From: Pararcticibacter amylolyticus
Lineage (GTDB): Bacteria > Bacteroidota > Bacteroidia > Sphingobacteriales > Sphingobacteriaceae
Reading direction: 5' to 3'
Length of the DNA: 43,809 bases
NCBI RefSeq assembly: GCF_003130405.1
Contig: NZ_QEAS01000008.1
Coordinates: forward strand, 1-43,809
Part shown: positions 1 through 30,004 of the stretch, one piece after another
How positions within the stretch are numbered: position 1 is the first letter of the stretch
How the letters are laid out: each line of letters opens with the position of its first letter
The notes under the pieces: generated by a model
Seen by the model: only the letters and a program-made list of their open reading frames with translations
Database searches by the model: none
Told to the model about the DNA's origin: nothing
Position numbers and translations under genes: made by a program

Positions 1-348
1 GCGATCCTGGCGGCTTTCAGGACGACGGAGCCTCTTTCGTTGCAGGAGCCGCTGAAAGTGAGGAAAGAGGCCGGGGGGCGTCACCCGGGCTTGTGTTATG
101 CGGGGAATGAGTTGCTGGAAAAGATGGCTGAGGTGGCGCAGAAGCGGAAGGCGAGGGAGCAAAGGGGCGGCCGGAGGGTTCGGGCGGATGGGATAGCGGG
201 AGATGGCATGGGGAGAAACGGGCCGGAGGGTGTTGTGGAGAATGAGAGGGGGGGGAGTTCGGAGGGTGTGTTGAGCGCGAAGGAAAGATTGAGCACTGAT
301 GGTGATGAAGGGATGCCTTTTGTATTGGGAAAGAGGTTTTCTCTTTAA
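1..348 (+). CDS. 3' end of an unidentified CDS (5' part outside window)
   Basis: Frame 1 is open from the first base to the TAA at 346-348, so this is probably the tail of a gene that starts upstream of the window; a TTG at 40 is unlikely to be a true start. The visible 115 residues begin with a short helical, Lys/Glu/Arg-rich stretch (around LLEKMAEVAQKRKAREQ) and then become low-complexity and Gly/Arg/Glu-rich, ending GKRFSL. Base composition is clearly more G-rich than the rest of the window. I do not recognise the family. It could also be a spurious frame in a GC-rich stretch. The last codons form the first copy of an 18-base tandem repeat that continues past the stop. Confidence 0.35.
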   Translation, partial: AILAAFRTTEPLSLQEPLKVRKEAGGRHPGLCYAGNELLEKMAEVAQKRKAREQRGGRRVRADGIAGDGMGRNGPEGVVENERGGSSEGVLSAKERLSTDGDEGMPFVLGKRFSL

Positions 349-4098: not shown

Positions 4099-4478
4099 CT
4101 GCAAACTTCTGCCTTATTCATATTGCGGATCTGAGCGACCATCGTCATGGTTGCTTCAGCTTCTATGTAGCCCCATATATGCTCAGGCAGGAAAACTTTG
4201 TGCGCCTGAAGCGTATCATAATTATTTTCTGAATGGAGGTGAAATAACGCCGGCGTTTGATTATCAAGCGTTAATAAAATTCCCTTTTTGTTTTTGAAGC
4301 GTATCAAATGTGCTGTAAATTGTTATTTTTCAGTTGATTATGTGGTTGTTTCTTTTGTTTTTCCGGGGAACCACTTTATATTTGCTTTCAGATTATAGCC
4401 TGTTATTTCTAAATACATTAAACACATCAATAGGTGTCAGAAACTGATTAGCCAAATAAAATTAATTTTCAATATACT
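4099..4478. other. Intergenic region between ldh and the GH5 operon
   Basis: About 380 bases with no supported gene. The 12-mer TGAAGCGTATCA occurs twice (4207-4218 and 4295-4306). The right part carries a clear promoter (4354-4384) for the downstream operon, leaving a leader of roughly 90 bases. A minus-strand frame running back into ldh was considered and set aside. Confidence 0.6.
4354..4384 (+). promoter_or_regulatory. Bacteroidota-type promoter of the GH5-receptor-GH18 operon
   Basis: TTTG at 4354-4357 and TATATTTG at 4377-4384 are separated by 19 bases, a full match to the TTG-N19-TAnnTTTG consensus. Transcription would start near 4390. It is the best promoter in the window and would drive the GH5 gene and, given gaps of 20, 29 and 35 bases, both receptors and the GH18 gene. 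Confidence 0.75.
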
Positions 4479-6263
4479 ATGCTTAGCTCTGAAAACCGAT
4501 ATTACAATCGCGCAACATCTTTCGTATTTCTTGTCTTACCCTTACTGATTTTATGCTTGCCCATTGCGTCGATAGCTCAGGGCTTTTTACGGGCGGAAGG
4601 AAAGAAGATTGTGGACGGAGAGGGGAAAAATGTATTGTTACGGGGAATCGGTTTAGGAGGATGGATGCTCCAGGAAGGATATATGTTGAAGATTAACCGC
4701 GAGGGGCAGCAGTACAGGATCAGGCAACGTATTGAAGAATTGATAGGGCCTGAACAAACAAAGGAATTCTATGATGCATGGCTTGCTAACCACATGAGGA
4801 AGTCAGATGTGGATTCGATGAAGAAATGGGGCTTTAACTCGATACGGCTACCGATGCACTATAACCTGTATACACTGCCGGTTGAAAAAGAACCCGTTGC
4901 AGGCAGTAATACCTGGCTCGACAAGGGATTTCAATTAACAGATAGTTTATTGTCGTGGTGTAAAGCTAACAGTATGTATCTCATTCTTGATCTTCATGCC
5001 GCACCCGGTGGCCAGGGGAATGATCTGAACATCTCTGACCGCGACCCCTCCAAACCCTCATTATGGGACAGCGAAGCAAACCAGCAGAAGACGGTAGCAT
5101 TGTGGAGAAAACTTGCTGAGCGGTATGCCAATGAGCAGTGGATAGGTGGGTATGATATTATAAATGAACCGAACTGGGGATTTACTAATCCGGAAAACGA
5201 TAAGAACGGTACGGGAGAGCCGTCGAATGCACCTTTAAGAAAGCTGATGGTTGACATCACCCGTGCAATCCGGGAGGTAGATAAAAATCATTTGATCATC
5301 ATTGAGGGCAATGGCTGGGGAAACAATTACCGGGGAATTCTTCCTCCATGGGATAGCAACATGGCATTGAGTTATCATAAGTACTGGAACTTTAACGATC
5401 TTGCTTCAATAAAGGGGATCCTTGAGAGCCGGGAGAAATACAATATTCCGGTTTGGCTTGGAGAGACAGGCGAAAACTCCAATGTTTGGTTCACGGAGGC
5501 AATTCGTCTGCTTGAATCCAATAATATAGGCTGGTCGTGGTGGCCTTTGAAAAAATTAGGATCTAATAATCCTCTTGAAATAAAATCTAACCCCAATTAC
5601 GACAAGGTGGCCCGGTATTGGAATGGTGCAGGTAACAAGCCCGGTGCAAGCGATGCATACAGCGGTTTAATGGAACTAACGTCCGCGTTAAAGAGCTCAA
5701 ATAATGCAGTACATCACGATGTTATCGACGCCATGATGAGGCAACCCTTTTCTTCTGAAACCAGGCCTTTCAAATTCCATTTGATTGATAAGGATAATGT
5801 GATTCACGCTGTTAATTACGACCTTGGAAGAAACGGATACGCCTATTTTGACAAAGATACTGCTAATTACAGGGTGTCGGGACAGGACGGACGAGGGAAC
5901 CGGGGTGGTGTTTACCGGAACGACGGAGTGGATATCCGGAAGGACTCAAGCCGTTATGAAAGCTATTACATAAGTGATATTGAAGATGGAGAGTGGCTTC
6001 AATATACCATAACGGTTAAGAAGGCAGGAACATATTCGCTGGCTTTAAATGTTGCCACTCCTTCTGATAAGGGAAGCGTATCTGTTTTCATAAACGGAAC
6101 AAAGAGTGTTAACGCCATGCCACTGGCGGCGACAGGAGATTTTCATCTCTGGAGGTCGCAGGAGCTTAAAAATATTCGCTTAATCAGAGGCACGAACAAA
6201 ATCAGGATATACAGTGATAAAGGGGGGTGGAATTTGAAAGATATCCGGTTTATAGCGCATTAA
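4479..6263 (+). CDS. Secreted GH5 beta-glucanase with C-terminal CBM6
   Basis: Predicted exported glycoside hydrolase of family 5 (cellulase superfamily, resembling glucan beta-1,3- or beta-1,4-glucosidases). Residues 1-34 include a hydrophobic signal segment ending near SIAQG. A (beta/alpha)8 catalytic domain covers about 35-385, with general acid/base E230 in YDIINEPNW and nucleophile E329 in VWLGETGEN. From about 425 to the end (594) a CBM6-like module is visible: YDLGRNGYAYFDKD, the calcium/sugar-binding region around GVDI, DGEWLQYTI and the closing GGWNLKDIRFI. Fine specificity cannot be read from sequence by eye. It is the first gene of an operon with two receptors and a GH18 enzyme, so its products may be what the receptors sense. 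Confidence 0.88.
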   Translation: MLSSENRYYNRATSFVFLVLPLLILCLPIASIAQGFLRAEGKKIVDGEGKNVLLRGIGLGGWMLQEGYMLKINREGQQYRIRQRIEELIGPEQTKEFYDAWLANHMRKSDVDSMKKWGFNSIRLPMHYNLYTLPVEKEPVAGSNTWLDKGFQLTDSLLSWCKANSMYLILDLHAAPGGQGNDLNISDRDPSKPSLWDSEANQQKTVALWRKLAERYANEQWIGGYDIINEPNWGFTNPENDKNGTGEPSNAPLRKLMVDITRAIREVDKNHLIIIEGNGWGNNYRGILPPWDSNMALSYHKYWNFNDLASIKGILESREKYNIPVWLGETGENSNVWFTEAIRLLESNNIGWSWWPLKKLGSNNPLEIKSNPNYDKVARYWNGAGNKPGASDAYSGLMELTSALKSSNNAVHHDVIDAMMRQPFSSETRPFKFHLIDKDNVIHAVNYDLGRNGYAYFDKDTANYRVSGQDGRGNRGGVYRNDGVDIRKDSSRYESYYISDIEDGEWLQYTITVKKAGTYSLALNVATPSDKGSVSVFINGTKSVNAMPLAATGDFHLWRSQELKNIRLIRGTNKIRIYSDKGGWNLKDIRFIAH

Positions 6264-6283: not shown

Positions 6284-8200
6284 ATGATAAGGAAAGGATC
6301 GATTGTAAGCATCGCAGTTTGTTTTGTTTGTTTACTTGGCGGGCGTGCCCTGGCTCAAAAGACCGTAGAGCTGTTCGCCAGTACACCTGAATACATCTTC
6401 ACCTTTGGCGATGTTCAGATCCTTGAAGATCGGTCGGGCCAGCTCACGTTTGAGCAGGTGAAAAGCGGAAAGTTCGATAAACAGTTTGTTTCAAGCGGAG
6501 AAAAATATCCGAAAAACAACCATGTCAGTTCTGCGTACTGGTACCGTGTAAAAGTAAGGTATGCAGAAGAAGCTCATTCCAGTTATCTGCTTGAATTTTA
6601 TGATCAGACCATTGATGACATAACCGCATGGTTGCCTGATAACAAAGGAAAATATTCATCGGCGCAGTCAGGAGCGAAGTTCGGTTTTGATAAAAGACTG
6701 TTCAGCCATAAAAACTTCCAGTTTAGTGTTCCTGCAAATCAGAAAGGAGTTTACACCTTTTATTTCAGGATTAAATCGGCCCAGACCGTTAATGTGATCA
6801 TTGTTCACCGGTCCGTTCAGAGGTTCGTAGGTTACGCGCTGACCGAATATTTTAGTTTCGGTCTGTTTTATGGAATGATTATCATCTTTAGCTTCCATAA
6901 TCTCCTCATGTATAGTGTTATGCGGCTGAGGCAGTACCTTTACTACGTACTCTACATCATTTCGGTGGGATTATACGAAATGAGTGCCGACGGAATAGCC
7001 TTTCAGTACCTGTGGCCGGATTCTCCGCGCTGGAACGAATATGCATACTCGGTTCCGCTATTCTTTTTAAGCACGTTTGCGTTATTGTTCACGATCGACC
7101 TGTTGCATGTAAAGGTGAAGGCGCCGCGGCTCTATAAACTGATGCTGGGAGTCCTCGCCCTGAGATCCGCTTTTTTCCTGTTATGTGCCTTGTATGAAAG
7201 GAGCTGGTTTAACTACCGGGTCGTAGAATTTATTCCATTGGCTATAGCCTTTTATACAGGCTTTTATATCTGGCGAAAGGGGTATAAACCCGCCCGTTTT
7301 TTTGTTCTTGCCTATACTTTTTTATTCGTGGGCTTTGTCCTTAAGGTCCTCGTGGTGTTAGGCTATGGTCGTTTCATTCCCGGATGGATTGCACACTACA
7401 GCATGAGTTTCTGCTTTATTGCAGAAATGCTTCTTCTATCTTTTGCGATAGGTGATAAAGTTCGTTTGCTGAAAAAGAAGAAAGAAAAGGCTCAGGTGAA
7501 GATCATCAGACAAATGGAAGAGAACGCCAGGCTAAAGGATACGATGAACCAGAAGCTGGAGGTAAAAGTCCGCGAGCGTACGCAGGAAATCGTCGAAAAG
7601 ACGAACGAGGTCAGGGAGAAGTCACTTATTATTGAACAGCAAAATGAAGAGTTGCTCTCTGCCAATCAGCTTCTGCACCAGCAGTCGGAAGAAATTGCAC
7701 GTATGAACCTGCTCCTTCAGAAGGACAACCAGGAGTTGCAAACGAATATCCGAAAAGTTACTCATGACCGGATGATGTCGGCTGAAGTGGATTTCGAGGA
7801 ATTTAGCAGGACTTATCCCGACCGTGACGCATGCTTCAGTTTATTATCCAATCTGAAATGGAAAAACGGGTATGCATGCAGGAAATGTGGTAACACAAAC
7901 TATTGCAGTGGTCATTTACCTTACAGCAGGAGGTGTACAAAATGCGGATATGATGAATCTGTCATTAGTAACACCATTCTTCAGAATACCCGTATCCCTG
8001 TAAATAAAGCCTTTTATATGATATTCCTCATCTACTCAACCAGGGGCAGGATCTCCTCCCACAAGCTCTCGGAGATTACCGGTATCAGGCAGAGTACCTG
8101 CTGGATGTATAGCAGTAAGATCAGGAAGGTAATGAATGAACGAAAAAAGGAGCTGCGTAAAGCGGGCGAGCAGGGCTGGAGTAAACTTGTACTTGAATAA
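6284..8200 (+). CDS. 7TMR-DISM receptor fused to a transposase-type zinc ribbon/HTH (first copy)
   Basis: Predicted inner-membrane sensor of 638 residues. The ATG at 6284 is preferred over an upstream in-frame start at 6227 because it directly begins a signal peptide (1-24, ending RALAQ) and avoids overlap with the GH5 gene. Layout: periplasmic DISMED2-like beta domain about 30-175 (opening ILEDRSGQLTFEQV), seven-helix domain about 186-395 (SFGLFYGMIIIFSFHNLLMY to LLLSFAIGDKVRLL), long coiled coil about 395-490, then a 120-residue C-terminal unit. That unit has four zinc-ribbon cysteines (C532, C535, C551, C554) and an HTH-like segment (SHKLSEITGIRQSTCW), matching the order found at the N-terminus of IS1595/ISXO2 transposases. 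The DDE catalytic domain is absent, as are HisKA/HATPase, GGDEF and other usual outputs. Inferred role: membrane-bound transcription regulator responding to a sugar ligand. The domain reading is strong; function is inference. Confidence 0.85.
   Translation: MIRKGSIVSIAVCFVCLLGGRALAQKTVELFASTPEYIFTFGDVQILEDRSGQLTFEQVKSGKFDKQFVSSGEKYPKNNHVSSAYWYRVKVRYAEEAHSSYLLEFYDQTIDDITAWLPDNKGKYSSAQSGAKFGFDKRLFSHKNFQFSVPANQKGVYTFYFRIKSAQTVNVIIVHRSVQRFVGYALTEYFSFGLFYGMIIIFSFHNLLMYSVMRLRQYLYYVLYIISVGLYEMSADGIAFQYLWPDSPRWNEYAYSVPLFFLSTFALLFTIDLLHVKVKAPRLYKLMLGVLALRSAFFLLCALYERSWFNYRVVEFIPLAIAFYTGFYIWRKGYKPARFFVLAYTFLFVGFVLKVLVVLGYGRFIPGWIAHYSMSFCFIAEMLLLSFAIGDKVRLLKKKKEKAQVKIIRQMEENARLKDTMNQKLEVKVRERTQEIVEKTNEVREKSLIIEQQNEELLSANQLLHQQSEEIARMNLLLQKDNQELQTNIRKVTHDRMMSAEVDFEEFSRTYPDRDACFSLLSNLKWKNGYACRKCGNTNYCSGHLPYSRRCTKCGYDESVISNTILQNTRIPVNKAFYMIFLIYSTRGRISSHKLSEITGIRQSTCWMYSSKIRKVMNERKKELRKAGEQGWSKLVLE
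7790..8143 (+). other. Domesticated transposase DNA-binding domain (within first receptor)
   Basis: Codes for residues about 503-620 of the first receptor. The pattern FxxF-x5-YPDRDAC, a K-W-x-x-G-Y stretch, CxxC, basic RRC, CxxC, SVISNTILQNTRIPVNKAFY and the IS-x-x-x-LSEITGI helix pair follows the N-terminal zinc ribbon and HTH of IS1595-type transposases. Translation stops about 18 residues later, with no room for the DDE/RNase H domain, and no terminal inverted repeats flank it. It is therefore a fused, stably encoded domain and not an insertion sequence. Confidence 0.75.
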
Positions 8201-8229
8201 GGCTTTAATTAAGATTAGTATTGTTTGCT

Positions 8230-10140
8230 ATGGGGAGAGAGTTTTACAGCAGGTTACTATTTTTATTTTTATGCACATTGACGGCGCCGGTGACAGTATC
8301 GGCTGCCAGAGAGGTCGGTATAGGGGGGAACACTGACGAGCATATATTTACTTATTCTGAAATAGATTATATCGAAGACAGGTCCGGTGAATTAACGTTT
8401 GCAGACGTAAGGGGAAAATATAAAGATAAATTTGTCAGCGGAGACAGAAATTATCCCCGGAATACTTCTGTTTCGTCGGCGTACTGGTTCAGGGTGAATG
8501 TGCGTTACCAAAGGACGTCCGGCAAAAGATATATCCTCGAGTTTTATAATCATACTACCGATAATCTTGAAGTGTATATACCGGATGGTAAAGGGAATTA
8601 CCAGATTTTTAAAGCTGGTGATAAAAATAATTTCAAGAAACGGTTCTTTCGCCATAAGAATTTTGAGTTCCCTGTTCCGGAACTGAAGGGGAGTTATATC
8701 ATATACTTCAGGTTAAAATCGGCCCCTGTTGCCAATGTGATTGTTGCGCACCGTTCCTTACAGCGCTTTGTTGAATACGCCTTGAGCGAATACATCTGTT
8801 TTGGACTGTTCTATGGTATGATCCTCATCTTCAGCTTTTATAACCTGCTGATGTTTATTGCGATACGGAAAAGATATTATATCTATTATATCCTGTATCT
8901 TCTTTCGGTAGGGCTTTATGAAATGAGTACCGACGGTATCGCGTTTCAGTATCTGTGGCCCGGGTCGCCCGAATGGAGTCAGTATGCTTACGGAGTACCC
9001 CTATTCTTTATTTCGGTGTTTTCCCTGCTGTTTGCTGCTGATCTGTTAAACATAAAAACACATGCACCTAAGGTGTATTCTTTAGTCAGGATCGTTTTAT
9101 GTGTCCGCCTTGTATTTTTTCTGTTATGTCTGTTCTACCGGCAGGAGTGGTTCAACTACAGAGCGATTGAATTCATTCCTCTTTCTATTGCGTTTTTTAC
9201 GGGAGTGTATTTATGGAGGAAAGGATATCATGCTGCGCGCTTTTTTGTGCTTGCTTATGCGTTTCTTTTTATAGGTTTTATTGGTAAGCTGCTTGTAAGC
9301 TTTGAGTATGCGAGGTTTATACCAGGGCCGGTGCCTCATTACAGCATGAGTTTAGGCTTTATCCTTGAAATGTTGTTCCTCTCATTTGCCATTGGAGATA
9401 AGGTGCGTTTACTTAAGAAGAAGAAGGAAAAAGTACAGCAAAGGGTGATCCGGCAGATGGAGGAAAATGCCCGTTTGAAAGATTCAATGACACGCGACCT
9501 CGAGATAAAAGTGGAGGAAAGAACCCAGGAAATCATAAAACAAACCCATGAAATCAGGGAACAATCTCAGCTTATTGAAGTACAGAATGAGAAGCTTATA
9601 ACTGCTAATAGTTTGCTGAAGGCTCAGGCAGAAGAGATCGCCCGGATGAATGCCTTGTTGCGGAAAGATAACCAGGAACTGCAGACGAGCATACAAAAAG
9701 TGACACATGACAGGATCATGTCGGCTGAAGTTGACTTTGAGGAGTTCAGCAAGACCTATCCGGACAGGGAAACCTGCTATAGCCTGCTGGCTGATATCAA
9801 GTGGAAGGGTGGATATGTTTGCAGAAGGTGCGGAAATACTAACTACTGTAACGGGCATCTTCCTTTCAGCCGGCGATGCTCAAAGTGCAGATATGAAGAA
9901 TCCGTGATTGCCAATACGATCCTTCAGAATACCCGTATTCCCGCAAATAAGGCTCTTTACATGGTTTATTTGATTTATACCAGTAAGGGAAAGATATCTT
10001 CCCATAAGCTTTCGGAAATTACGGGAATCAGGCAGAGTACGTGCTGGTCTTATTGTACGAAAATTAAAAAGGTACTGGAAGAAAGAAAAAGGGATTTACG
10101 TAATGCCGGGGCTGAGGGGTGGAGTAAGTTGATGGTGTAG
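8230..10140 (+). CDS. 7TMR-DISM receptor fused to a transposase-type zinc ribbon/HTH (second copy)
   Basis: Tandem paralogue of the preceding gene, 636 residues, same domain order throughout. The ATG at 8230 is chosen over TTG 8221; it starts a signal peptide (about 1-26, ending VTVSAA). The DISMED2-like sensor is about 31-175 (YIEDRSGELTFADV), the 7TM domain about 187-395, the coiled coil about 395-490, zinc-ribbon cysteines C531, C534, C550, C553 and the HTH SHKLSEITGIRQSTCW about 590-606. By eye the DNA-binding part is roughly three quarters identical to the first copy, while the periplasmic domain differs more, including the N-terminal segment and charged loops. That suggests similar DNA targets but different ligands, or a heteromeric receptor. 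It follows the first copy by 29 bases and precedes the GH18 gene by 35 bases on the same strand. Confidence 0.85.
   Translation: MGREFYSRLLFLFLCTLTAPVTVSAAREVGIGGNTDEHIFTYSEIDYIEDRSGELTFADVRGKYKDKFVSGDRNYPRNTSVSSAYWFRVNVRYQRTSGKRYILEFYNHTTDNLEVYIPDGKGNYQIFKAGDKNNFKKRFFRHKNFEFPVPELKGSYIIYFRLKSAPVANVIVAHRSLQRFVEYALSEYICFGLFYGMILIFSFYNLLMFIAIRKRYYIYYILYLLSVGLYEMSTDGIAFQYLWPGSPEWSQYAYGVPLFFISVFSLLFAADLLNIKTHAPKVYSLVRIVLCVRLVFFLLCLFYRQEWFNYRAIEFIPLSIAFFTGVYLWRKGYHAARFFVLAYAFLFIGFIGKLLVSFEYARFIPGPVPHYSMSLGFILEMLFLSFAIGDKVRLLKKKKEKVQQRVIRQMEENARLKDSMTRDLEIKVEERTQEIIKQTHEIREQSQLIEVQNEKLITANSLLKAQAEEIARMNALLRKDNQELQTSIQKVTHDRIMSAEVDFEEFSKTYPDRETCYSLLADIKWKGGYVCRRCGNTNYCNGHLPFSRRCSKCRYEESVIANTILQNTRIPANKALYMVYLIYTSKGKISSHKLSEITGIRQSTCWSYCTKIKKVLEERKRDLRNAGAEGWSKLMV
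9733..10086 (+). other. Domesticated transposase DNA-binding domain (within second receptor)
   Basis: Residues about 502-619 of the second receptor. It keeps all four zinc-ribbon cysteines and the HTH seen in the first copy, including the identical stretches TILQNTRIP and SSHKLSEITGIRQSTCW. Retention of metal ligands and the helix pair in both copies indicates selection for DNA binding and argues against chance readthrough into a mobile-element remnant. Confidence 0.75.
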
Positions 10141-10175
10141 CAATAGTTTGACTAAGTAAATAATTGATATTCAAA

Positions 10176-11312
10176 ATGAAACTGAAAAATCTAGTATTAA
10201 TGGTGGCAGTACTCTTTATTCTGACTGCATCAATGAGGAGCGACAAACCGGAGGCAGGGAATAATGATAAACGCAAAAAAGTGATTATTGGATACGTAGG
10301 AGGATACAAGGGGAGAATCGATATTGCGGGGATTTCTGCCGGAAAGCTTACCCATATCAATTATGCATTTGTTAATATAAAGAACGGAAGGGCTTTTCTT
10401 GACAATGAAGTAACTGATACATCTAATTTCAGGTCGCTCAACAGATTGAAAGAGAAGAACAGGGAACTGAAGATACTGATTTCTATCGGAGGCTGGTCGT
10501 GGAGTGAGAACTTTTCGGATGCCGTGCTGACCGATAGTTCGAGAGTGATATTTGCAAAGAGTGCGGTAGATATTATCAGGAAATACGCTTTGGATGGAGT
10601 CGATATAGACTGGGAATATCCGGGTATGAGTGGGGAAGAGGGGAATATTTATCGTCCCGAAGATAAACAAAACTATACCCTAATGTTCCGCTCTCTGCGC
10701 TCTGAACTTGATCTGCTGGAAAAAGAAACAGGGAAGAAGAAACTGCTGACAACAGCGACAGGCGGTTTTACTTCTTTTCTTGAGCATACCGAGATGGGCA
10801 AAGCACAGCAATATCTTGATTATATAAACCTGATGACGTATGACTTCTACTCAGGAAGTACGGTAGGGCATCATACCAATCTTTACGCATCCAAAGCTTA
10901 TCCTGCCGGCAATAATGCAGATAAGGCGGTGAAAGCTTACATTGCTGCCGGTGTGCCTGCAGCTAAACTGGTAATGGGAATTGCTTTTTATGGCAGGACC
11001 TTTGTTCTGGTAGATTCCACCAGAATATTAGGGGCTAAATATGCTTCTCAGGCTTACGGGTCGGGCTACAGTTTCATTAAAGATAGTCTGATGACTAATA
11101 AAGCGTTTAGAATGTATAAAGACAAAAAGGCAAAAGCTCCTTATCTCTATAGCGCTTCTGCTAAAAAGTTTATAACCTACGACGACGAATGGTCTGTTAA
11201 GAACAAATGCCGGTATGTAAATAAGTCAGGGATGGGGGGAGTGATGTTCTGGGAGTACAGTTCCGATCCTAAAGAATATCTGGTCGACGAGATTAACAAG
11301 GAGTTGAAGTAG
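10176..11312 (+). CDS. Secreted GH18 chitinase-like glycoside hydrolase
   Basis: Family 18 hydrolase (chitinase/endo-N-acetylglucosaminidase superfamily), 378 residues from the ATG at 10176; an in-frame TTG at 10164 is ignored because the ATG opens the signal peptide directly. After the hydrophobic N-terminus (1-20), the (beta/alpha)8 domain shows SIGGWSWS (about 103-110), the catalytic DxxDxDxE motif as DGVDIDWE (140-147, acid E147), MTYDFYSG and the closing GVMFWEYSSDP, together with the chitinase insertion domain region around YGRTFVL. These features fit an active chitinase. No chitin-binding module is attached. It is the last gene of the GH5-receptor operon, so chitin fragments are a possible receptor ligand. 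Confidence 0.92.
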   Translation: MKLKNLVLMVAVLFILTASMRSDKPEAGNNDKRKKVIIGYVGGYKGRIDIAGISAGKLTHINYAFVNIKNGRAFLDNEVTDTSNFRSLNRLKEKNRELKILISIGGWSWSENFSDAVLTDSSRVIFAKSAVDIIRKYALDGVDIDWEYPGMSGEEGNIYRPEDKQNYTLMFRSLRSELDLLEKETGKKKLLTTATGGFTSFLEHTEMGKAQQYLDYINLMTYDFYSGSTVGHHTNLYASKAYPAGNNADKAVKAYIAAGVPAAKLVMGIAFYGRTFVLVDSTRILGAKYASQAYGSGYSFIKDSLMTNKAFRMYKDKKAKAPYLYSASAKKFITYDDEWSVKNKCRYVNKSGMGGVMFWEYSSDPKEYLVDEINKELK

Positions 11313-14121: not shown

Positions 14122-15783
14122 TTATTTCCAGTTCGGATTTTGTATTACGTTACCGTCACTCAGTGTTATCTCGTTGAAAGGAATCGGATATAGATAGTCG
14201 CGGTTCTCCGTAAAAGATCTTTTGCCTGCATCTTCAACTATTAGAACTCCATCAGCATTCAGGTTCAATGAAGAAGGATTGGTTCCTACCCAGTCGGTAG
14301 CATTGAATTTAGCTCCGAGAAGTGTTTGAGGTAAGACCCGTTCTGCTGTTTTCCACCGGATAAGGTCGTCATAACGGAAGCCTTCTAAAGCCAGTTCTAC
14401 AGTTCGCTCTCTCCGGATCTCTTCACGCATACTTAAATTATTGCCAGTAACGAATGTGTTGGTAAGTCTGGCACCAAAACCAGCACGGGCGCGTAATGCG
14501 TTAATGGTTAAATTTAAATCCGCATCACTTATGGCTCCATCCAGCTCATATTTAGCCTCTGCATATATCAGTAGTACTTCCGCATAACGGATAAGTATCC
14601 GGTCAACCGTCCCGGCATTGGTGGTCGTCCAGTCGGGAATATTGAACCCTTTTTTGGTTGCATAAGCAGTTCGCGAACCGAGGGAAGTAGTCGGCGTCCA
14701 TATTCCTTTATAGGCCGTTTCTCCGTTCATGAAAACAGTTGCTGCCATTCTCGGATCCCGGTTTTCGAAGATTGTATTATAGGAGGCTTCGTCACGTTCA
14801 TTTACAAAGAAGGCTGATCTTTTTGCACTGGGAGCATTATCTGTATTAAATGCGGGAAGGCCATCGGTATATAAATATTCGCGGAGCAAATTCCGTGTAG
14901 CTGCGGCTCGCCCGTTTTCCAGATCACGGGAATAATTATGACCCAATATCACATTGGTATTATTAACTCCATAAATCTTAACAAGGATATTTTCCGTATT
15001 TGCCGGGCCTTCCCCGGCCTGAATAAACAGGCCTGAATAACTGGGAAACAGAGTGTGTCCCTGGCCCATTACCGCCGAAGCTGCCTGAACCGCAATATTG
15101 AGATGTGTTTGCCATTCGCCGTCGTTATGAAATTTAGCTCTTGTTCCTTCATATAGAGCTACACGGGCTTTAAACGCCAGAGCAGCGCTTCTTGTGATCC
15201 GGCCATATTGAGTGCTGGCGAGTGCTGCACGGGTGGGAGCCCAGGTTGCGGCGAAATCGAGATCATCATAAATGGTTTGAACAATAGTTTGCCTGTCGGA
15301 TCGCGGCATTTTCAGATCCGGGGAATTGATGCTGAGAACTTTTAAAACAAGAGGAACTCCTCCAAATTTCTGCAGTAAGCTGAAATATGCATAAGCCCTG
15401 AAAAAGCGGGCTTCCCCGAAATAGCGGTTCTTAACCGCATCAGAGACTTGTGCTTTGACACCCTTTTCAAGAATGTTGTTAGCAGTGAAAATCATATCAT
15501 ACGGCCTGCTCCAGTCATCACTTGTATTGGGAATGGTTCGGTTTCCACTGCTGACCCCATTTACATTCTGACCTGTATTGTCGTCAGCTCTGTTATCAGG
15601 CGAGTAGGGACTCATCTGACCCAGAATAACATATAGTCTGTTAGCGGCGTTCATCAGGTCGGACTCAGTATTCCAGAAGTCCACTTCAGAAAACTTTGTT
15701 TCAGGAAAACGATCGAGGTCGCAACTACTGTAGATCAGAGAGAGCGAAAGCAAAGTAACTATAGTGATATTTATCTTTTTCAT
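14122..15783 (-). CDS. SusD/RagB-family starch-binding-like outer-membrane lipoprotein (left arm)
   Basis: Surface glycan-binding lipoprotein that caps its SusC partner. The 553 residues begin with a lipoprotein signal (C21 in IYSSC). SusD features follow: the N-terminal FPETKFSEVDFWNTESDLMNAANRLY, helical TPR-like parts such as RYFGEARFFRAYAYFSLLQKFGGVPLV, the RYAEVLLIYAEAKYEL segment and the C-terminal YLYPIPFNEITL-NPNWK ending. It starts 15 bases after the SusC stop, so the two are cotranscribed. The size and closing motif are normal for the family; nothing indicates truncation. Confidence 0.95.
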   Translation of the reverse strand: MKKINITIVTLLSLSLIYSSCDLDRFPETKFSEVDFWNTESDLMNAANRLYVILGQMSPYSPDNRADDNTGQNVNGVSSGNRTIPNTSDDWSRPYDMIFTANNILEKGVKAQVSDAVKNRYFGEARFFRAYAYFSLLQKFGGVPLVLKVLSINSPDLKMPRSDRQTIVQTIYDDLDFAATWAPTRAALASTQYGRITRSAALAFKARVALYEGTRAKFHNDGEWQTHLNIAVQAASAVMGQGHTLFPSYSGLFIQAGEGPANTENILVKIYGVNNTNVILGHNYSRDLENGRAAATRNLLREYLYTDGLPAFNTDNAPSAKRSAFFVNERDEASYNTIFENRDPRMAATVFMNGETAYKGIWTPTTSLGSRTAYATKKGFNIPDWTTTNAGTVDRILIRYAEVLLIYAEAKYELDGAISDADLNLTINALRARAGFGARLTNTFVTGNNLSMREEIRRERTVELALEGFRYDDLIRWKTAERVLPQTLLGAKFNATDWVGTNPSSLNLNADGVLIVEDAGKRSFTENRDYLYPIPFNEITLSDGNVIQNPNWK

Positions 15784-15798
15784 AAATCATAATTGAAA

Positions 15799-18700
15799 TT
15801 ATAAACCAACATTCATCCCGAATGAGATAGTCCTGTAAAAGGGGTATGTATTTGCCTTGACAAGGTTGCCCGGTGAAGCATCTGTTCCTACCTCGGGATC
15901 GAACACTTTTAACACCTTCGTCGATTCCCACAGATCCTGCCCTGAAAAGTAAACCCGCAAGGTTTGTATATATTTTTTCTTTACAGGGATTGTATAGCCG
16001 AGCTGGATATTTTTTAAACGTATGTAATTGCCGTTTTGAGCCCATTTGTCGGACGGGCGGTAATTATGATCGCTTGTCTGATACATCCGTGGAAAAAGGG
16101 CATTGGGATTTTCCGGGGTCCACCGGTCCATATGTATGGTCCATGGCATATTTGATGTTTCATAAAACGGAGCTACAGTGCTTCGGTCTATTAAAAAGTG
16201 GCGTTCTGAGGCGCCCTGCAGCATTGCCGAAAAATCAATTCTTTTCCAGTTAAAGCCGAAATCAGCACCGAACTGGTATCTGGGGTCGTTGGAGCCTAAG
16301 TATACAAGATCTCCGGAGTTTTGAGGTGTGCCGTCTCCCGCATCAATAGTCCCATTCCCGTCCAGATCCAGGTATTTCACGTCACCGGCGGTGTAGCTCG
16401 CAAAAAAGGGATATTTTACTTTGGTTCTGTATTCGTCGGCTTCTGCCTGTGACTGAAAATATCCGTCAGTTCTGTATCCCCATATGCTGTTCAGCGGGTA
16501 ACCTTCAAGCGTGTAAACCTGACCACCGCTCCCTATGGAGTTGGTGCCATTGTATTTGATTAGTTTATTCTGAGTATCAGTGATGTTAAATCCAATGTTA
16601 TAATTAAACTTCCCGATACGATCTCTCCACTTAGTCTCAAGTTCCCATCCCCAGCTTTTAAGCTCTCCTATGTTAGTCGTCGATGTCCTTACACCTATTA
16701 TATTGGGGACATTTAACCGGGCAAGCATATTTTTATTGCGTTTAACAAATGCGTCGGCCGTTACGGTCAGTCTCTCCTGAAACAATCCGAGATCAAGACC
16801 GAAATCGGAATTTTCTACAATCTCCCATGTTTTATCTACTGAGGGCAATTCCTCCTGGAGCAGGTATTGGGTACGCTGATCGTTAAATACGAGATTAGGA
16901 TAACTTCCCGGGCTACTTCCATTAAGAACCAGGCCGCTGCTAATCAGTCCCAGATAATCATATAAGCCAAATCCGGCCCCATTCCCCAGCTGGCCCCATG
17001 ATGCTCTGAGTTTCAGGTTAGATACAAATGGAAACGTTTCTTTGAAAAACTTTTCTTCATTGATTCGCCACCCCGCCGAGAAAGAAGGGAATAGCTTCCA
17101 TCTGTTCTGCGGAGCAAGCCTGGAGCTGCCATCATAACGAAACGAGGCTTCGAAGAGGTATCTTTCATTAAAATTGTAATTGAATCTTCCGAAATAAGAA
17201 GAGAATGCCCAGGTTTCAACATTGTCATTAACTGTTTTTTGCAGGGGATCAGAAAAGTTGAAGCTGTAAAAGTCGTTAGTGATCATTCCCTTGCCTACCG
17301 CCCAGAATTCATCCTTACGGTACTCTTCAAAAGAAGTGCCTCCCAGCAGCTTGAAGTTATGCTTATTTAATTGAAGATTATAGGTAAAGGTACCCTGTAT
17401 GTTATTTTGAAATCCTTTGTTTTTCGTCATGTCCAGTTCATTGGGGACATTAAATTGGAATCTGACTGTGTTGGTAGTACGACCATACCAGAATAAGCTT
17501 CTTTTGTCGGATTCCTGGTTGTAATAGTTTTGGTTGCGCCAGCCGGCGAGGTCAACCGTTAAGCCTTTTACCAGGTTTTTTAGTGTGAAATTTAATTTCC
17601 CCTGGAAGGTGTCATAATCCCTCGTTTCCTTCCCTCCGTTCTTTTCAATATCGACCGGATTGATCTGAAGGTCTCCGTTATAAGGCTGCCCCGTTATATC
17701 CTCGGCCGGTACATATAATAATTGTCGAGTACGGCTCCGGTATAAACGATCAATAATATTGTCCGTACCATTTGAATTCAGATTAACGGATGATCCGATA
17801 TATCCTCCCACGAAACCTACGCTGATATACTTATTCAGCTCAGCGTTCACGTTCAGTTTGAAATTTGTTCTGGAGTTATCGTCCGGTCCGTAACGTAATA
17901 CCCCATTCCGCGTGTAGTAACTTCCTGAAGCCAGGTAATTAAGCTTCTGAGATCCTCCGCTTACAGATAAGGTATAGTTTTGCATAGAATTAACCTTATC
18001 CATACCTTCTTTCAGCCAGTTGTTATTGCCGAAATATTCCCAGCGATCCTGAGTGGGATTTTCTCTCACGTCGAAATTGGCATTTTTGAGCCATTCAATT
18101 TGTTCGGGAGTGTATTCACGGGCACCTGTAGCATTGAAGCGCGATTCGTCAATCAGGGTTTGTTCATCCCATGAATTCAGCCGCTCTGGTTGCCTGGCCG
18201 TGATATTGAGACCATAATAATTATTAAAGTTGATCCTCGTCTTGCCTTCCGCACCTTTTTTTGTCGTAATCAATACAACACCACCGGCGGCCCGTGCTCC
18301 GTATATAGCTGCTGCCGAAGCGTCTTTAAGTACAGAAATAGATTCAACATCGTCAGGATTTATCAGGTTCATATCCATTTCCATCCCGTCGACTAATACC
18401 AGGGCGTTGGAGCCGCTTGCAGAGGAAAATCCGCGAATACGGATACCGTAACCCTCATCTCCCGGTCTCCCCGTCTGACGCGAAATCGCAACACCGGGGG
18501 CGACGCCTTGTAAAGCAGCGGTCACATTTGGTACCGGCCTGTTCTCCAGTTCTTCACCGCCTACCTGTGTAACAGCACCTGTAAGGTTAACCTTTTTTTG
18601 TGTTCCATATCCAATTACTATGACTTCGTTTAATTGAGAAACGTCGTCTTTCATGACTACGTTAATGGCATTCCGTTTATTGACCGGTATTTCCTGTTTG

Positions 18701-18957
18701 ATAGAGCCAACCTGTGTGAATACTAAAATGCTGTTGTCCGGCGCTGTGATAGTATAATTACCCCGTACATCAGAACTAACACCTTTTGTAGTCCCTTTAA
18801 CTAATACACTGACTCCGGGTGCCGGACTGCCGTCCTGCGACGTTATTCTTCCTGTGATCTTAATGGGAGTTTGGGCAACAGCAGCCGTCGCAATGAACAT
18901 TATAATACACAAAGAGAGGATAGGATGTAAGCATTGAAAGTAGACTTTCATGTTCAT
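15799..18957 (-). CDS. SusC/RagA-family TonB-dependent receptor (left arm)
   Basis: Outer-membrane importer of oligosaccharides, 1052 residues. Signal peptide about 1-29 (ending AVAQ), CarboxypepD-regulatory-like Ig domain about 32-105 (GRITSQDGSPAPGVSVLVKG), a TonB-box region around 110-117 (NEVIVIGYG), plug domain about 120-235 with the SusC signature SISVLKDASAAAIYGARAAG, and a long beta-barrel ending ISFGMNVGL. It lacks an N-terminal STN/secretin domain, so control through a FecR/ECF sigma pair is not indicated. The start is the ATG at 18957; ATG 18951 is nearly equivalent. First gene of the left arm, with a promoter about 200 bases upstream. Confidence 0.96.
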   Translation of the reverse strand: MNMKVYFQCLHPILSLCIIMFIATAAVAQTPIKITGRITSQDGSPAPGVSVLVKGTTKGVSSDVRGNYTITAPDNSILVFTQVGSIKQEIPVNKRNAINVVMKDDVSQLNEVIVIGYGTQKKVNLTGAVTQVGGEELENRPVPNVTAALQGVAPGVAISRQTGRPGDEGYGIRIRGFSSASGSNALVLVDGMEMDMNLINPDDVESISVLKDASAAAIYGARAAGGVVLITTKKGAEGKTRINFNNYYGLNITARQPERLNSWDEQTLIDESRFNATGAREYTPEQIEWLKNANFDVRENPTQDRWEYFGNNNWLKEGMDKVNSMQNYTLSVSGGSQKLNYLASGSYYTRNGVLRYGPDDNSRTNFKLNVNAELNKYISVGFVGGYIGSSVNLNSNGTDNIIDRLYRSRTRQLLYVPAEDITGQPYNGDLQINPVDIEKNGGKETRDYDTFQGKLNFTLKNLVKGLTVDLAGWRNQNYYNQESDKRSLFWYGRTTNTVRFQFNVPNELDMTKNKGFQNNIQGTFTYNLQLNKHNFKLLGGTSFEEYRKDEFWAVGKGMITNDFYSFNFSDPLQKTVNDNVETWAFSSYFGRFNYNFNERYLFEASFRYDGSSRLAPQNRWKLFPSFSAGWRINEEKFFKETFPFVSNLKLRASWGQLGNGAGFGLYDYLGLISSGLVLNGSSPGSYPNLVFNDQRTQYLLQEELPSVDKTWEIVENSDFGLDLGLFQERLTVTADAFVKRNKNMLARLNVPNIIGVRTSTTNIGELKSWGWELETKWRDRIGKFNYNIGFNITDTQNKLIKYNGTNSIGSGGQVYTLEGYPLNSIWGYRTDGYFQSQAEADEYRTKVKYPFFASYTAGDVKYLDLDGNGTIDAGDGTPQNSGDLVYLGSNDPRYQFGADFGFNWKRIDFSAMLQGASERHFLIDRSTVAPFYETSNMPWTIHMDRWTPENPNALFPRMYQTSDHNYRPSDKWAQNGNYIRLKNIQLGYTIPVKKKYIQTLRVYFSGQDLWESTKVLKVFDPEVGTDASPGNLVKANTYPFYRTISFGMNVGL

Positions 18958-18995
18958 AAAAATTAAGTTTATGTTAATTAATTAGCTTTTACTTC

Positions 18996-19028
18996 GTCCG
19001 GTCCGCAATGGATTTTGTTGTGCCGGAC
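18996..19028 (-). promoter_or_regulatory. Leader stem-loop upstream of left-arm SusC
   Basis: GTCCGG (18996-19001) and CCGGAC (19023-19028) form a hairpin in the predicted mRNA leader, ending about 39 bases before the start codon. A second pair, CCAGAC (19051-19056) and GTCTGG (19085-19090), lies further up the leader. Such structure could modulate translation or be a target for a small RNA. Confidence 0.4.
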
Positions 19029-19364: not shown

Positions 19365-19521
19365 CCTTAACTTGATGAGGCGTTTTTACTTAAGTTCATG
19401 TAATAGTTGATCTGTTGCTGAGAACAGTTCACGAAAAGAACGCCAAAAAAGACTGGCGAATAAGGCGTATCATATTCAGCGGCCAGGGCCGGGTACAGAT
19501 GTATTTTATCATTGATATACA

Positions 19522-19532: not shown

Positions 19533-19609
19533 ATTTTTTTACGATGTCGTTAAAGCGTATTGAAAGTTAGTTAACTATCTTATTATCAATAAATTGTGAT
19601 ATTTTTTTC

Positions 19610-19641
19610 TTGTTTTTTTCTTGAAAACCGCCCTATCTTTA
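19610..19641 (+). promoter_or_regulatory. Probable promoter of the right PUL arm
   Basis: TTG at 19610-19612 and TATCTTTA at 19634-19641 are separated by 21 bases; the -7 box differs from TAnnTTTG only in its last base. Transcription would begin near 19647, leaving a leader of about 48 bases before the SusC ATG at 19695. Confidence 0.5.
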
Positions 19642-19650
19642 CCGCAGAAA

Positions 19651-19664
19651 TTATAACCGGTTAT
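19651..19664. promoter_or_regulatory. Palindrome ATAACCGGTTAT at the right-arm transcription start
   Basis: ATAACCGGTTAT (19653-19664) is a perfect 12-base palindrome that begins within a few bases of the predicted transcription start. Together with the preceding TT it repeats the TTATAACCG found at 19524-19532. A protein bound here would block initiation, so it is a candidate operator. Confidence 0.45.
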
Positions 19665-19694
19665 TTCTATCAGTTTTTAATTAACCTAAGTAAT

Positions 19695-22600
19695 ATGAGA
19701 AAAAAACTTACAATTATTCTTGTATTCCTGTTATCTGTTGGTACGTTATCTTTTGCTCAGGAGCATACTGTCAAGGGTGTCGTGAAAGACAAACAGGGAA
19801 TCCCTTTGCCGGGGGTATCGGTGAAAGTTAAAGGAACAAGCAAAGGTGTCTCTTCCGGAGTGAATGGAGATTACCGGATTGCAGTTCCCCCGAACGCTGT
19901 ATTGGTTTTTACAAGCATTGGTTTTGCTGTTCAGGAGATAAACGCCGGAAGCAGGTCGGAGATTAACATCACTCTTTCTGACGATACCAAACAGCTGGAT
20001 GAAGTGGTGGTTATCGGCTACGGTACTGCTACAAAGAAGGATGTGACCGGTGCTATATCTAGTGTAAAAGCCAGTCAATTGGAGAATGAGAACCCGCAGA
20101 ATGTTACCGATATACTGAGAGGAAACATACCAGGTCTTAATGTTGGTCTTAGCACCAGTGCAAAAGGTGGGGGTGATCTGCTTGTGAGAGGGAAGACTAC
20201 CTTAAGCGCTTCAATTTCCCCATTAATAGTTCTTGATGGGATTATTTATTCAGGTCAGCTTTCTGATATTAATCCTAATGATATTGAAAGTATTGATGTT
20301 CTGAAAGACGCCAGTTCGCTCGCCGTATATGGAGCCAAAGCTGCAACAGGAGTTGTTGCGATCACTACAAAAAAGGGGAAAAGCGGTGCTCCCATCATTA
20401 CTGTTAACACAAATTTCGGCCTTGCTTCCCTGGCCCGGGACCAAAAAGTTTACGACGGCCCCGGTTTTCTCAAATGGAGAGCTGACGTAATGAGGAGCGG
20501 TGCGGCAACGCCATCTTATTTATATGATAATCCGGATAACCTGCCGGAAGGAATAACTCTCACCCAATGGCTGAATGGTCAGAGCGGTGATCCTACCGAT
20601 CTCTGGTTAAACCGTCTTGGCTTGGTTGCGAATGAAAAGGCCAATTATCTCGCAGGAAAAACGGTCAATTGGTATGATGAGATTTTCAGAACTGGTCTGC
20701 GTCAGGATCATACGGTAAGTATGTCCGGCAGAAAAGAGGAAGTTAGCTATTATATGTCTCTGGGATATCTAAAGAATGAGAATCTGATAAAAGGGGGTGA
20801 GTTTAGCACATTCAGAGCCAGGGTTAATCTCGAGGGTAAGGCAGCGAAGTTTTTGACAGTCGGACTAAATTTTCAATATGCAGATAGAGACGAGGGAGCT
20901 ATTGAGGCTGATTGGAATCAGTTAACAAGCCTTTCTCCATATGGCGATATGTATACAGCAGACGGCAAATTAAGGAGAATTCCGACAGATGACAACGGAC
21001 TAAATGCAAGGAACCCGTTCCTTGATATGACCTATAATTCGCGGTTGAACAGGCAGAATACAATTTTCGGTAGTTTGTATACCAAGGTTGAGTTGCCCTT
21101 CGGAATCACATATCAGCTGAACTTCAGCCCCGGAATAGATATGTATCGTACCTTTAATCATAGTTCAACTAATAATCCAAATGTTACAACTCCGGGTGGG
21201 TCGGTTACCCGTGCAAATGAAACCAGGTACAACTGGCAGGTCGATAATTTGCTAAAGTGGAACAAGACCTTCAACAAGATCCACACTATTGATGTGACAT
21301 TGCTTGCGAATGCTGAAAAATATCAAACATGGTGGACGCAGGCCGGAAATGAGGGGTTCGTGCCGAGCGATGTCTTAGGATATCATAATTTGTCAAGTGG
21401 AATTAAGGCTACAGTAGACGCAGAAGACAAAGTTGCGACAGGAAACGCTTTGATGGGCAGGTTAAACTACAGCCTTATGCAGAGATATAATCTGACGCTT
21501 TCTGTAAGACAGGATGGATATTCGGTGTTTGGAGCAAACTTTAAGGATGCAGTCTTTCCGTCGGCTGCTTTTGCCTGGACTTTTACAGAAGAGTCGTTTA
21601 TGAAAGGTAAACTAAACTGGCTGGATTATGGTAAACTACGGTTGTCATATGGTATTAACGGCAACAGAGAATTACGGAACCCGGATAACGGAACATTAGA
21701 TCCTTACGCTGCCTTGCAGCTGCTTACAATAGGAAAATATCAACTTGTGAATAACAGCGGTACTCCACTTGAAGCAAACACCGTCAGAAACGGGAACCGG
21801 ATGGGAAATGACAATCTGAAATGGGAACAAACGAAATCGCTTAATGCTGGTTTGGACTTCTCCGTTCTGCATGACAGGTTAAGCGGTTCAATTGACGTGT
21901 ACGATAAAAGAACCCGTGACCTGCTTGTAAAACCAACGCTGACTAATGTTTCAGGATACGACAATGTTTTTTCAAATTTAGCTGCAATCAAGAATACAGG
22001 ATTAGAGCTGAGCCTGAACAGCAAGAACGTGAGGTCTGAGAAATTCACCTGGAATACATCACTTAATTTTTTCTTCAACCGTAACAAAATTGAGCGACTT
22101 GCAACTACCTCAGATGAACCAGGTAACGGGTGGTTTATTGGAAAAGATGTCGACGTGATATGGGATTACAAGATTTTAGGAGTTTGGCAGGAAAGTGAAC
22201 TTGAGGAGGCCAATAAATTTAACAAAGGCATCAAAGCCGGTGATTTTAAACTTGAAGATGTCGACGGAAATTATACCTATAATGATCTTGACAAACAGTT
22301 TATTGGTTATAAAACACCAAGATTTGTGTGGGCATTAAGAAACGAGTTCAACATCTTCAGAAATATTGATTTCTCTTTTCAGCTGTTGTCCAATTGGGGG
22401 CAGAAAAAGCAATTTAATCAGGCCAAGAACCAGCCTGGAAGTGTTGGCTTCGGTAGGTCCAGTTCCTATATACTGCCCTATTGGACTCCTTCAAATCCCT
22501 TAAATGATTTTGCACGGTTAAATTCAGGGCTTAGCGGAGCAAGTTTCAACGTATGGAGGGATAACTCGTTCATCAGGTTGAATACTGTTGCCGTTGCTTA

Positions 22601-22766
22601 TTCACTGCCTCAGTACCTGGCTGGAAAATTAAAGGTAAAAAGTGCTAAAGTTTACCTGAATGTTAATAACGCCGCGCTATATGCCCCGACATGGGATTAC
22701 TGGGATCCGCAGAATGACGGACCGACGCCGCGGTATTACACTTTAGGGCTTAATGTTTCACTTTAA
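19695..22766 (+). CDS. SusC/RagA-family TonB-dependent receptor (right arm)
   Basis: Outer-membrane oligosaccharide importer, 1023 residues from the ATG at 19695; an upstream in-frame start at 19596 is rejected because it would precede the signal peptide and run through the promoter. Signal peptide 1-21 (ending SFAQ), regulatory-like Ig domain about 25-96 (GVVKDKQGIPLPGVSVKVKG), TonB-box region LDEVVVIGYG (101-110), plug about 115-225 with SIDVLKDASSLAVYGAKAATG, then the beta-barrel to the closing YYTLGLNVSL. Like the left-arm SusC it has no STN domain. SusD follows after 13 bases. The two SusC proteins are clearly different sequences, so the arms are not a recent duplication. Confidence 0.96.
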   Translation: MRKKLTIILVFLLSVGTLSFAQEHTVKGVVKDKQGIPLPGVSVKVKGTSKGVSSGVNGDYRIAVPPNAVLVFTSIGFAVQEINAGSRSEINITLSDDTKQLDEVVVIGYGTATKKDVTGAISSVKASQLENENPQNVTDILRGNIPGLNVGLSTSAKGGGDLLVRGKTTLSASISPLIVLDGIIYSGQLSDINPNDIESIDVLKDASSLAVYGAKAATGVVAITTKKGKSGAPIITVNTNFGLASLARDQKVYDGPGFLKWRADVMRSGAATPSYLYDNPDNLPEGITLTQWLNGQSGDPTDLWLNRLGLVANEKANYLAGKTVNWYDEIFRTGLRQDHTVSMSGRKEEVSYYMSLGYLKNENLIKGGEFSTFRARVNLEGKAAKFLTVGLNFQYADRDEGAIEADWNQLTSLSPYGDMYTADGKLRRIPTDDNGLNARNPFLDMTYNSRLNRQNTIFGSLYTKVELPFGITYQLNFSPGIDMYRTFNHSSTNNPNVTTPGGSVTRANETRYNWQVDNLLKWNKTFNKIHTIDVTLLANAEKYQTWWTQAGNEGFVPSDVLGYHNLSSGIKATVDAEDKVATGNALMGRLNYSLMQRYNLTLSVRQDGYSVFGANFKDAVFPSAAFAWTFTEESFMKGKLNWLDYGKLRLSYGINGNRELRNPDNGTLDPYAALQLLTIGKYQLVNNSGTPLEANTVRNGNRMGNDNLKWEQTKSLNAGLDFSVLHDRLSGSIDVYDKRTRDLLVKPTLTNVSGYDNVFSNLAAIKNTGLELSLNSKNVRSEKFTWNTSLNFFFNRNKIERLATTSDEPGNGWFIGKDVDVIWDYKILGVWQESELEEANKFNKGIKAGDFKLEDVDGNYTYNDLDKQFIGYKTPRFVWALRNEFNIFRNIDFSFQLLSNWGQKKQFNQAKNQPGSVGFGRSSSYILPYWTPSNPLNDFARLNSGLSGASFNVWRDNSFIRLNTVAVAYSLPQYLAGKLKVKSAKVYLNVNNAALYAPTWDYWDPQNDGPTPRYYTLGLNVSL

Positions 22767-22779
22767 TTTGATCATTCAC

Positions 22780-24663: not shown

Positions 24664-24690
24664 TGCTCATATAAATCATGTACTTTAGAA

Positions 24691-24724
24691 GACGCACAGT
24701 TGTGTTTTATTTCAACTGTGCGTC
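24691..24724 (+). terminator. Strong stem-loop after right-arm susD
   Basis: GACGCACAGTTG (24691-24702) and CAACTGTGCGTC (24713-24724) form a perfect 12-base stem with a 10-base loop. It is followed by AATTTAATCTG, not a pure T tract, so partial termination or 3'-end protection of the susCD mRNA is more likely than complete termination. Confidence 0.7.
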
Positions 24725-24749
24725 AATTTAATCTGTCTTTAAGAACCAA

Positions 24750-27455: not shown

Positions 27456-27476
27456 TAATCTTTGAAGGAGTAAGAT

Positions 27477-29942: not shown

Positions 29943-30004
29943 TAGTCTTTCCGGATCCATATGTCACCAGAAACTCTCCATTTATAACTTAAAATTTTGA
30001 TATT

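Follow-up and report, generated by a model that had tools for sequence, protein, structure and literature searches.

The first 43,809 nucleotides of contig NZ_QEAS01000008.1 of Pararcticibacter amylolyticus, hereafter the window, encode two tandem membrane receptors in which a 7TMR-DISM sensor is joined to a C-terminal zinc ribbon and helix-turn-helix (ZnR-HTH) of the kind that opens IS1595 transposases. Judged by gene neighbourhood, the receptor genes belong to polysaccharide-utilization loci (PULs), and as far as sequence comparison reaches, a conserved paired operator goes with the tail. We consider it likely that the receptors are membrane-bound one-component PUL regulators, which would sense outside the cell, bind the paired operator and activate transcription while tethered to the membrane.

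Two receptors with a transposase-type tail

Receptor 1 (6284..8200; 638 aa, ATG start) and receptor 2 (8221..10140; 639 aa, TTG start, with a possible ATG start 9 bp inside) are complete open reading frames (ORFs) on the plus strand, as are all window features below unless stated otherwise, and a signal peptide is present as judged by eye. Pfam places a 7TMR-DISMED2 extracytoplasmic domain at residues 43–173 of receptor 1 (6410..6802) and the 7TMR-DISM 7TM domain at residues 188–392 (6845..7459), the latter lying at 8788..9402 in receptor 2. Both are clearly above cut-off, with E values for receptors 1 and 2 of 1.2e-29 and 1.2e-25 for DISMED2 (103 and 90 bits against 22), and of 7.2e-46 and 2.7e-44 for the 7TM domain (157 and 152 bits against 29). 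The IS1595-type zinc ribbon (Zn_ribbon_IS1595, PF12760) is matched at 7823..7951 and 9766..9894 with 25.5 and 26.9 bits, just above the curated cut-off of 25.4; the tails alone reach 28.5 and 28.8 bits, and two relatives score slightly below the cut-off (24.6 and 24.4 bits). Behind the ribbon of receptor 1, the HTH region (7985..8152), tri-helical in the structure model, corresponds to the start of the NCBIfam IS1595 transposase model NF033547. Only positions 1–57 of its 215 are covered, and the score of 24–31 bits is far below the cut-off of 75, as expected because the DDE part is missing. Indeed, neither receptor matches PF12762 (DDE), and both ORFs stop after the HTH in Pfam and NCBIfam searches.

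7TMR-DISM receptors usually end in a histidine kinase, GGDEF, phosphatase or similar output. No kinase, GGDEF or phosphatase output domain is found by Pfam in the window receptors up to an E value of 1, and matches to HisKA, HATPase_c, receiver and AraC-type HTH are absent from them and from the Reg_prop relative described below. The genome itself holds three receptors of the present type and one transposase-sized IS1595 relative, and its two remaining 7TMR-DISM proteins have a histidine kinase as output, in one case together with a receiver. The cysteines presumed to bind zinc (C532, C535, C551 and C554) are invariant across seven sequences with 25–63% identity to the first, and a CxxC-14..16-CxxC pattern occurs within the last 175 residues of 94/94 receptors. 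The HTH motif RQSTCW is invariant in the close set and only partly kept in the distant set. As a separate observation, most listed receptors carry a GW(S/A/T)xLV-like motif after the HTH at their extreme C-terminus (8174–8197 in the window).

The AlphaFold2 model of the tail shows a ribbon-like hairpin followed by a tri-helical HTH, with a block-mean predicted local distance difference test score (pLDDT) of 87–96 over tail-model residues 41–150 and an overall mean of 84.4. In the full-length model (mean pLDDT 78.6), a beta domain at the N-terminus is followed by a helical membrane part and by a helix spanning residues 367–472; residues 467–501, between helix and tail, are below 50. Both models agree with the domain order from the profiles. 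A profile search of the tail against solved structures returned nothing below an E value of 0.18, and Foldseek with the tail model gave no match at E ≤ 0.001. VIA-align of the HTH yielded a best Z of 5.7 (a homeodomain), with 4.6 for IstA and about 4–4.5 for Lrp-type HTHs, scores that are compatible with an HTH and not diagnostic of it. The reading of the earlier note, made from the letters alone, is confirmed by Pfam, NCBIfam and AlphaFold2: it had described two complete ORFs with signal peptide, DISMED2-like sensor, 7TM domain, long coiled coil, zinc-ribbon cysteines and HTH, ending before any DDE domain. Its zinc-ribbon assignment holds narrowly and its sensor assignments by a wide margin.

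The architecture is widely distributed in Bacteroidota, a point on which four scans agree. With tblastn, it was found in eight plasmid records of Flammeovirga, Persicobacter and Aureibacter at 91–99% query coverage and 25–29% identity; four annotated RefSeq entries bear as their sole name "7TM diverse intracellular signaling domain-containing protein". Among genome contigs, 557 stretches were found to code for a relative of one part or another of the architecture, and the best 80 of these were kept as 79 loci (L009–L087), mostly from Pedobacter, Mucilaginibacter and Chitinophaga. Receptor and tail form one unbroken ORF in 79/79 of them, which answers the concern of the earlier note that a frameshift or assembly join might separate the two parts in related genomes; L009 carries two, for a total of 80 receptors. 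By manual count, 27 of the 101 genomes of the family of the window hold a tail-bearing ORF longer than 550 aa, as do at least 11 of 395 genomes across the phylum, in four families, the latter a lower bound since scoring was limited to nine candidates per genome.

Within three genes of the 80 receptors, SusC or SusD is encoded in 59, a glycosidase or lyase cluster in 62, and either in 75; a same-strand susC lies directly downstream of 58. The five with neither are L010, L014, L026, L081 and L084, two of which (L026 and L081) are close to the end of a contig. Representatives of the neighbour clusters are, by Pfam, SusC, SusD, GH30, GH3, GH5, GH2, GH16 and chondroitinase-B-like proteins. In the window, a GH5 glycosidase with CBM6/35 (4479..6263) precedes the receptors and a GH18 (chitinase-like) gene (10164..11312) follows them. 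Because these two genes are co-directional with the receptors and separated from them by short gaps (20, 20 and 23 bp from GH5 through to GH18), a four-gene operon is likely, with GH5 as its first gene and GH18 as its last. Further downstream are a presumed target operon for SusC, SusD, two GH2 and a GH88 protein (19596..31195) and, on the minus strand, a divergent SusC/SusD pair (14122..18957) that is a possible target. GH5, GH18, GH2, GH88 and alginate-lyase-type neighbours do not single out one glycan.

A paired operator that accompanies the tail

In an alignment of 24 gaps between receptor and susC, CGTAT is prominent among the rows listed. Two CGTAT[CT] boxes, direct repeats of the AAGCGTATCA type with a consensus of about GGTA-N3-AAGCGTATCA, lie 76–93 bp apart in 59/61 such gaps. 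The spacing is 92 bp in 23 gaps, 79 in 12, 90 and 91 in seven each, 93 in six, 89 in three and 76 in one. As the boxes were located through CGTAT[CT], only the letters outside this word are free evidence. An ATCAG-like B element follows each box; behind the A2 box it ends at +34 from the core in 51 of the 52 gaps where it was found, and behind the A1 box mostly at +56 to +59. In eight cases, consistent with the short-spacing class, the A1 element ends at +47. That class is 10–14 bp shorter, about one helical turn, since its A1 B element is at +47 as opposed to +56 to +59. The A2 box itself lies 23–406 bp upstream of the called susC start.

A position weight matrix (PWM) was built from 101 distinct boxes, the genome of the window being excluded. 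A PWM pair is present in 67/90 receptor loci, as against 0/90 reversed loci and 0/53 control loci, the latter spanning 283 kb with overlap between some stretches. Pairs outside the training gaps occur in the window, at the third receptor of its genome, and in L012 (second), L031, L034, L048 and L062 (second); further ones, outside a receptor–susC gap, occur in L044, L063, L077, L083, L086, L127 and L144. Two of these pairs are in the window. The first precedes the GH5–receptor operon and consists of an A1 box at 4200..4220 (core CGTATC at 4212, exact AAGCGTATCA, 19.2 bits) and, 88 bp after it, an A2 box at 4288..4308 (core at 4300, 22.0 bits), behind which TCAG ends 34 bases from the core start by manual count, matching the 51/52 gaps. 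The second precedes the susC at 19596, with A1 at 19454..19474 (core at 19466, 15.0 bits) and A2 at 19544..19564 (core at 19556, 13.1 bits), followed by a TCAA whose end is 34 bases from the start of the core (manual count). The pair sums are 41.2 and 28.1 bits, compared with a best of 21.8 in 100 Markov shuffles of the window. A degenerate pair on the minus strand, within 18957–19400 upstream of the divergent susC (spacing 79, sum 15.5), is possibly a third, weak operator.

Little can be read from one box alone, because there are 26 copies of the bare 10-mer AAGCGTATCA in the genome, against 7 in the reversed control. Relaxed box pairs are likewise at chance level, with 28 places against 35 in the reversed control; when these 28 are scored by the PWM, only three score: the two window pairs and a pair immediately behind the third receptor. 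Across the 101 family genomes, a strict pair pattern gives 21 places in 17 genomes, and 3 in the reversed control. The PWM is passed by 16 of these places; the 14 genomes concerned all belong to the 27 receptor genomes and none to the 74 others, with receptor count and operator scan taken as covering the same 101 genomes and 43 of the 74 not listed by name. Of the five strict places that the PWM rejects, four belong to two genomes lacking a receptor. By manual count, a receptor gene is found within 3 kb of 12 of the 16 passing places.

Two side observations concern relatives. In four loci a second pair lies about 4.6 kb behind the receptor–susC operator (L031, 14508–14585; L034, 14501–14578; L048, 14572–14649; L062, 14570–14658), which may point to a second promoter controlled in the same way. 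In one Cytophagales-like genus, a GTGTGTA-nn-AAGCGTATA block stands behind the receptor in L091 and L096, and AAGTGTATA in L092, with no pair shown; such a box was not seen in five other distant loci.

Origin of the tail and a natural sensor swap

For a tree of the tails, domains shorter than 100 aa and identical rows were removed and 137 rows were thinned by identity to 53, with classes assigned by ORF length only. All 25 sampled receptor tails fall on one side of a single branch (support 96/80), and none of 500 label shuffles scored as low. The neighbours of this clade are a 137-aa solo domain, a transposase-like set in genome G162 and the transposase of an insertion element in genome G099; the branch that joins the nine-copy G162 set is weak (94/64). 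The tree program infers no root, and the direction rests on other IS1595 transposases as outgroup. The grouping of receptor tails as one clade beside Bacteroidota IS1595 transposases bears out the transposase origin that the earlier note had proposed, and it suggests that the tail was captured from a transposase, perhaps via domesticated intermediates. Among close pairs, of which 51–58 of 189 were usable, the median ratio of nonsynonymous to synonymous substitution rates is 0.075 for DISMED2 (55 pairs), 0.023 for the 7TM domain, 0.029 for the coil and 0.016 for ZnR-HTH (57 pairs). By this measure the tail is the most constrained part, a pattern of diversifying sensor and fixed head.

The G162 set comprises nine transposase-like paralogues, eight of which (L194–L201; 304–332 aa) were read. 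Four have a common AGGCGC stretch before the start codon, and a search around eight of the nine genes for inverted repeats that might hint at the operator gave none that convinces. Their catalytic residues appear by eye to be lost, and we therefore reject the set as a live transposon. The nearest intact relative of the receptor tails is a multi-copy IS1595-type element in G099 (L209–L215), both ends of which were read from several copies and give the terminal repeat ATAGAATAAGGCGTTT.

This terminal repeat has GAATAAGGCGT in common with one window operator box. The best shared word between repeat and operator boxes is 11 bases, a length reached in 5/3000 shuffles, or in 7/20000 for the window boxes alone. 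The likeness is only suggestive, because its mean over all 107 boxes is ordinary (1007/3000 shuffles as high). A scenario that we regard as doubtful, and offer tentatively, is that a single capture of a transposase's end-binding domain gave a 7TM receptor its tail, which afterwards passed to a Reg_prop sensor, with an operator that descends from, or still resembles, the inverted repeat bound by the transposase. If true, protein and landing site would both derive from one mobile element.

The tail is found without its 7TM receptor in a 1090-aa ORF of genome G421, in which Reg_prop propellers and Y_Y_Y are followed by an apparent membrane helix and then by the ZnR-HTH tail, which replaces the kinase parts. 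This tail groups inside the receptor clade of the 53-tail tree. An operator pair (spacing 79, 37.0 bits) lies 178 bp upstream of the ORF start, and another (spacing 78, 20.7 bits, B box at +34 by manual count) in the 272-bp gap downstream. No further fusion of this kind was seen among the matches listed from 300 genomes of the order, nor in the other two of the three genomes of its genus. The operators that flank the gene are best taken as consistency rather than proof.

Stand-alone ZnR-HTH proteins of about 155 aa also exist in five genomes of one genus (g9), at L129:5668-6276 (202 aa as called), L130:5331-5798, L131:5336-5800, L132:5413-5880 and L133:5435-5899, in a gene order common to four and partial in L129. 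These look like an independent domestication, since the two rows used in the tree lie far from the receptors. In L134 (5888-6445), a 185-aa ZnR protein (PF12760) adjoins a 1358-aa ORF that by eye resembles a hybrid two-component regulator.

Mode of action and comparison with known systems

If the receptors are one-component regulators, a periplasmic saccharide or saccharide-bound protein would change the 7TM bundle, and the long helix, probably in a parallel dimer, would reposition the two ZnR-HTH heads. These would bind the two A boxes, some 7.5–9 helical turns apart, and binding before susC and before the receptors' own operon would activate both, the protein still being in the membrane. In the window, the targets would be the GH5–GH18 operon itself and the susC-susD-GH2-GH2-GH88 operon. 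The earlier note had described a one-step signalling protein, and sensor and HTH are indeed found in a single protein by Pfam and in the full-length model; its further proposal, that sugar controls DNA binding by the tethered head, we keep in the conditional.

Several points weigh against this account. The HTH fold matches are weak, with a best Z of 5.7. The CGTAT core of the PWM is fixed by the search word, most of its training boxes come from loci in the 67/90 tally, and, as the loci are related by descent, the counts do not represent independent events. Nor do the box spacings amount to whole helical turns. In 23/90 receptor loci no PWM pair was found: six are distant Cytophagales (L005–L008, L152 and L153), in ten the receptor gene is the last of a glycosidase operon that apparently begins beyond the stretch scanned, and seven are unexplained (L009, L010, L014, L022, L081, L084 and L145). 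Among the 27 receptor genomes of the family, 13 are without a PWM-passing strict pair, and four of the 16 passing places have no receptor close by: those of G428 and G472 are on other contigs, that of G415 is 20 kb away and one of G483 more than 280 kb away. The Reg_prop fusion was seen in one genome; its downstream pair, at 20.7 bits, is below the best whole-window shuffle of 21.8 and was counted only for lying in the 272-bp gap; and, with an ordinary receptor some 5 kb from it, the operators are not assignable to the fusion alone.

The distant operator places would be easier to reach if the ZnR-HTH were freed by regulated proteolysis upon ligand binding and acted as a soluble factor, and the poorly predicted residues 467–501 could serve as a cleavable linker. 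We regard this as unlikely, since most passing places are close to a receptor gene, as tethered binding predicts, and no anti-sigma or site-2 protease gene is present among the 16 recurrent neighbour clusters scanned. It is also conceivable that another factor binds the paired boxes as an element of the susC promoter or leader and that the receptor acts via a partner; the A2 boxes lie where any promoter element could lie. However, such boxes are also found upstream of the window's GH5–receptor operon and on both sides of the Reg_prop-ZnR gene, and the 74 family genomes without a receptor-sized ORF hold no PWM-passing place, which makes this explanation quite improbable. A tail that no longer binds DNA and works as a zinc-dependent dimerisation or partner-binding module would accord with the low transposase-model score and the weak fold matches; it is very improbable in view of the invariant RQSTCW of the close set, the strong constraint on the tail and the specific DNA motif that accompanies it. 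Finally, the resemblance of the tail to a transposase could reflect a transposon insertion or assembly join that fused receptor and fragment. We reject such an artefact as barely credible, because the same junction recurs in all 79 loci and in the plasmid records of three other genera, under strong purifying selection.

If the receptors are membrane-bound one-component regulators, they would constitute a further kind of PUL regulator, and a common one in the family (27/101 genomes), beside the three Bacteroidetes-specific kinds named in the PUL-regulator passages of PMC3878776: SusR-like proteins, hybrid two-component systems (HTCS) and pairs of extracytoplasmic function (ECF) sigma and anti-sigma factors. 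The operator, the target operons and the natural sensor swap would make signal transfer through the 7TM domain open to simple reporter study. The earlier note knew of no description of the architecture, and in the open-licence literature we found none of the transposase-derived head, the Bacteroidota class or the operator. The relevant passages of PMC1592074 mention 7TMR-DISM and rare S-helix–HTH links, and no zinc ribbon or transposase. A DNA-binding 7TMR-DISM receptor is not new as a general idea, because 7TMR-DISM is already listed, in the domain-architecture passages of PMC8092284, among the domains that occur with a C-terminal ChiS DNA-binding domain. ChiS of Vibrio cholerae, by its description, is set apart from the present receptors by a DNA-binding domain of its own (a cryptic HTH) and by its occurrence in proteobacterial genomes.

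With IS1595 transposases, the receptors have the zinc ribbon and first HTH in common, but they lack a DDE match and are fused to a sensor; with other 7TMR-DISM receptors they share DISMED2 and 7TM domains, whereas the window receptors end in ZnR-HTH and not in a catalytic output. HTCS also control SusC/D loci, and a Reg_prop and Y_Y_Y sensor occurs in one relative here too (P0003). HTCS differ in signalling via HisKA, HATPase, receiver and AraC-type HTH, as seen by Pfam in one neighbour protein, and their motifs are about 21 bp apart according to the operator passages of PMC3878776. The closest likeness in mode of action is to SusR-like regulators, for which the same passages predict two widely spaced direct repeats, 67 or 77 bp apart, before susC. 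In both cases a membrane sensor is joined to a cytoplasmic DNA-binding domain, here by predicted domains, and a direct-repeat operator with a long spacer precedes susC, here of 76–93 bp in 59/61 gaps. The SusR DNA-binding domain is said there to resemble no other known, while the head described here is an IS1595 zinc ribbon with HTH and the sensor is 7TMR-DISM. Because widely spaced direct repeats precede susC, we take the receptors to work like SusR, by analogy in mode of action and with no claim of homology.
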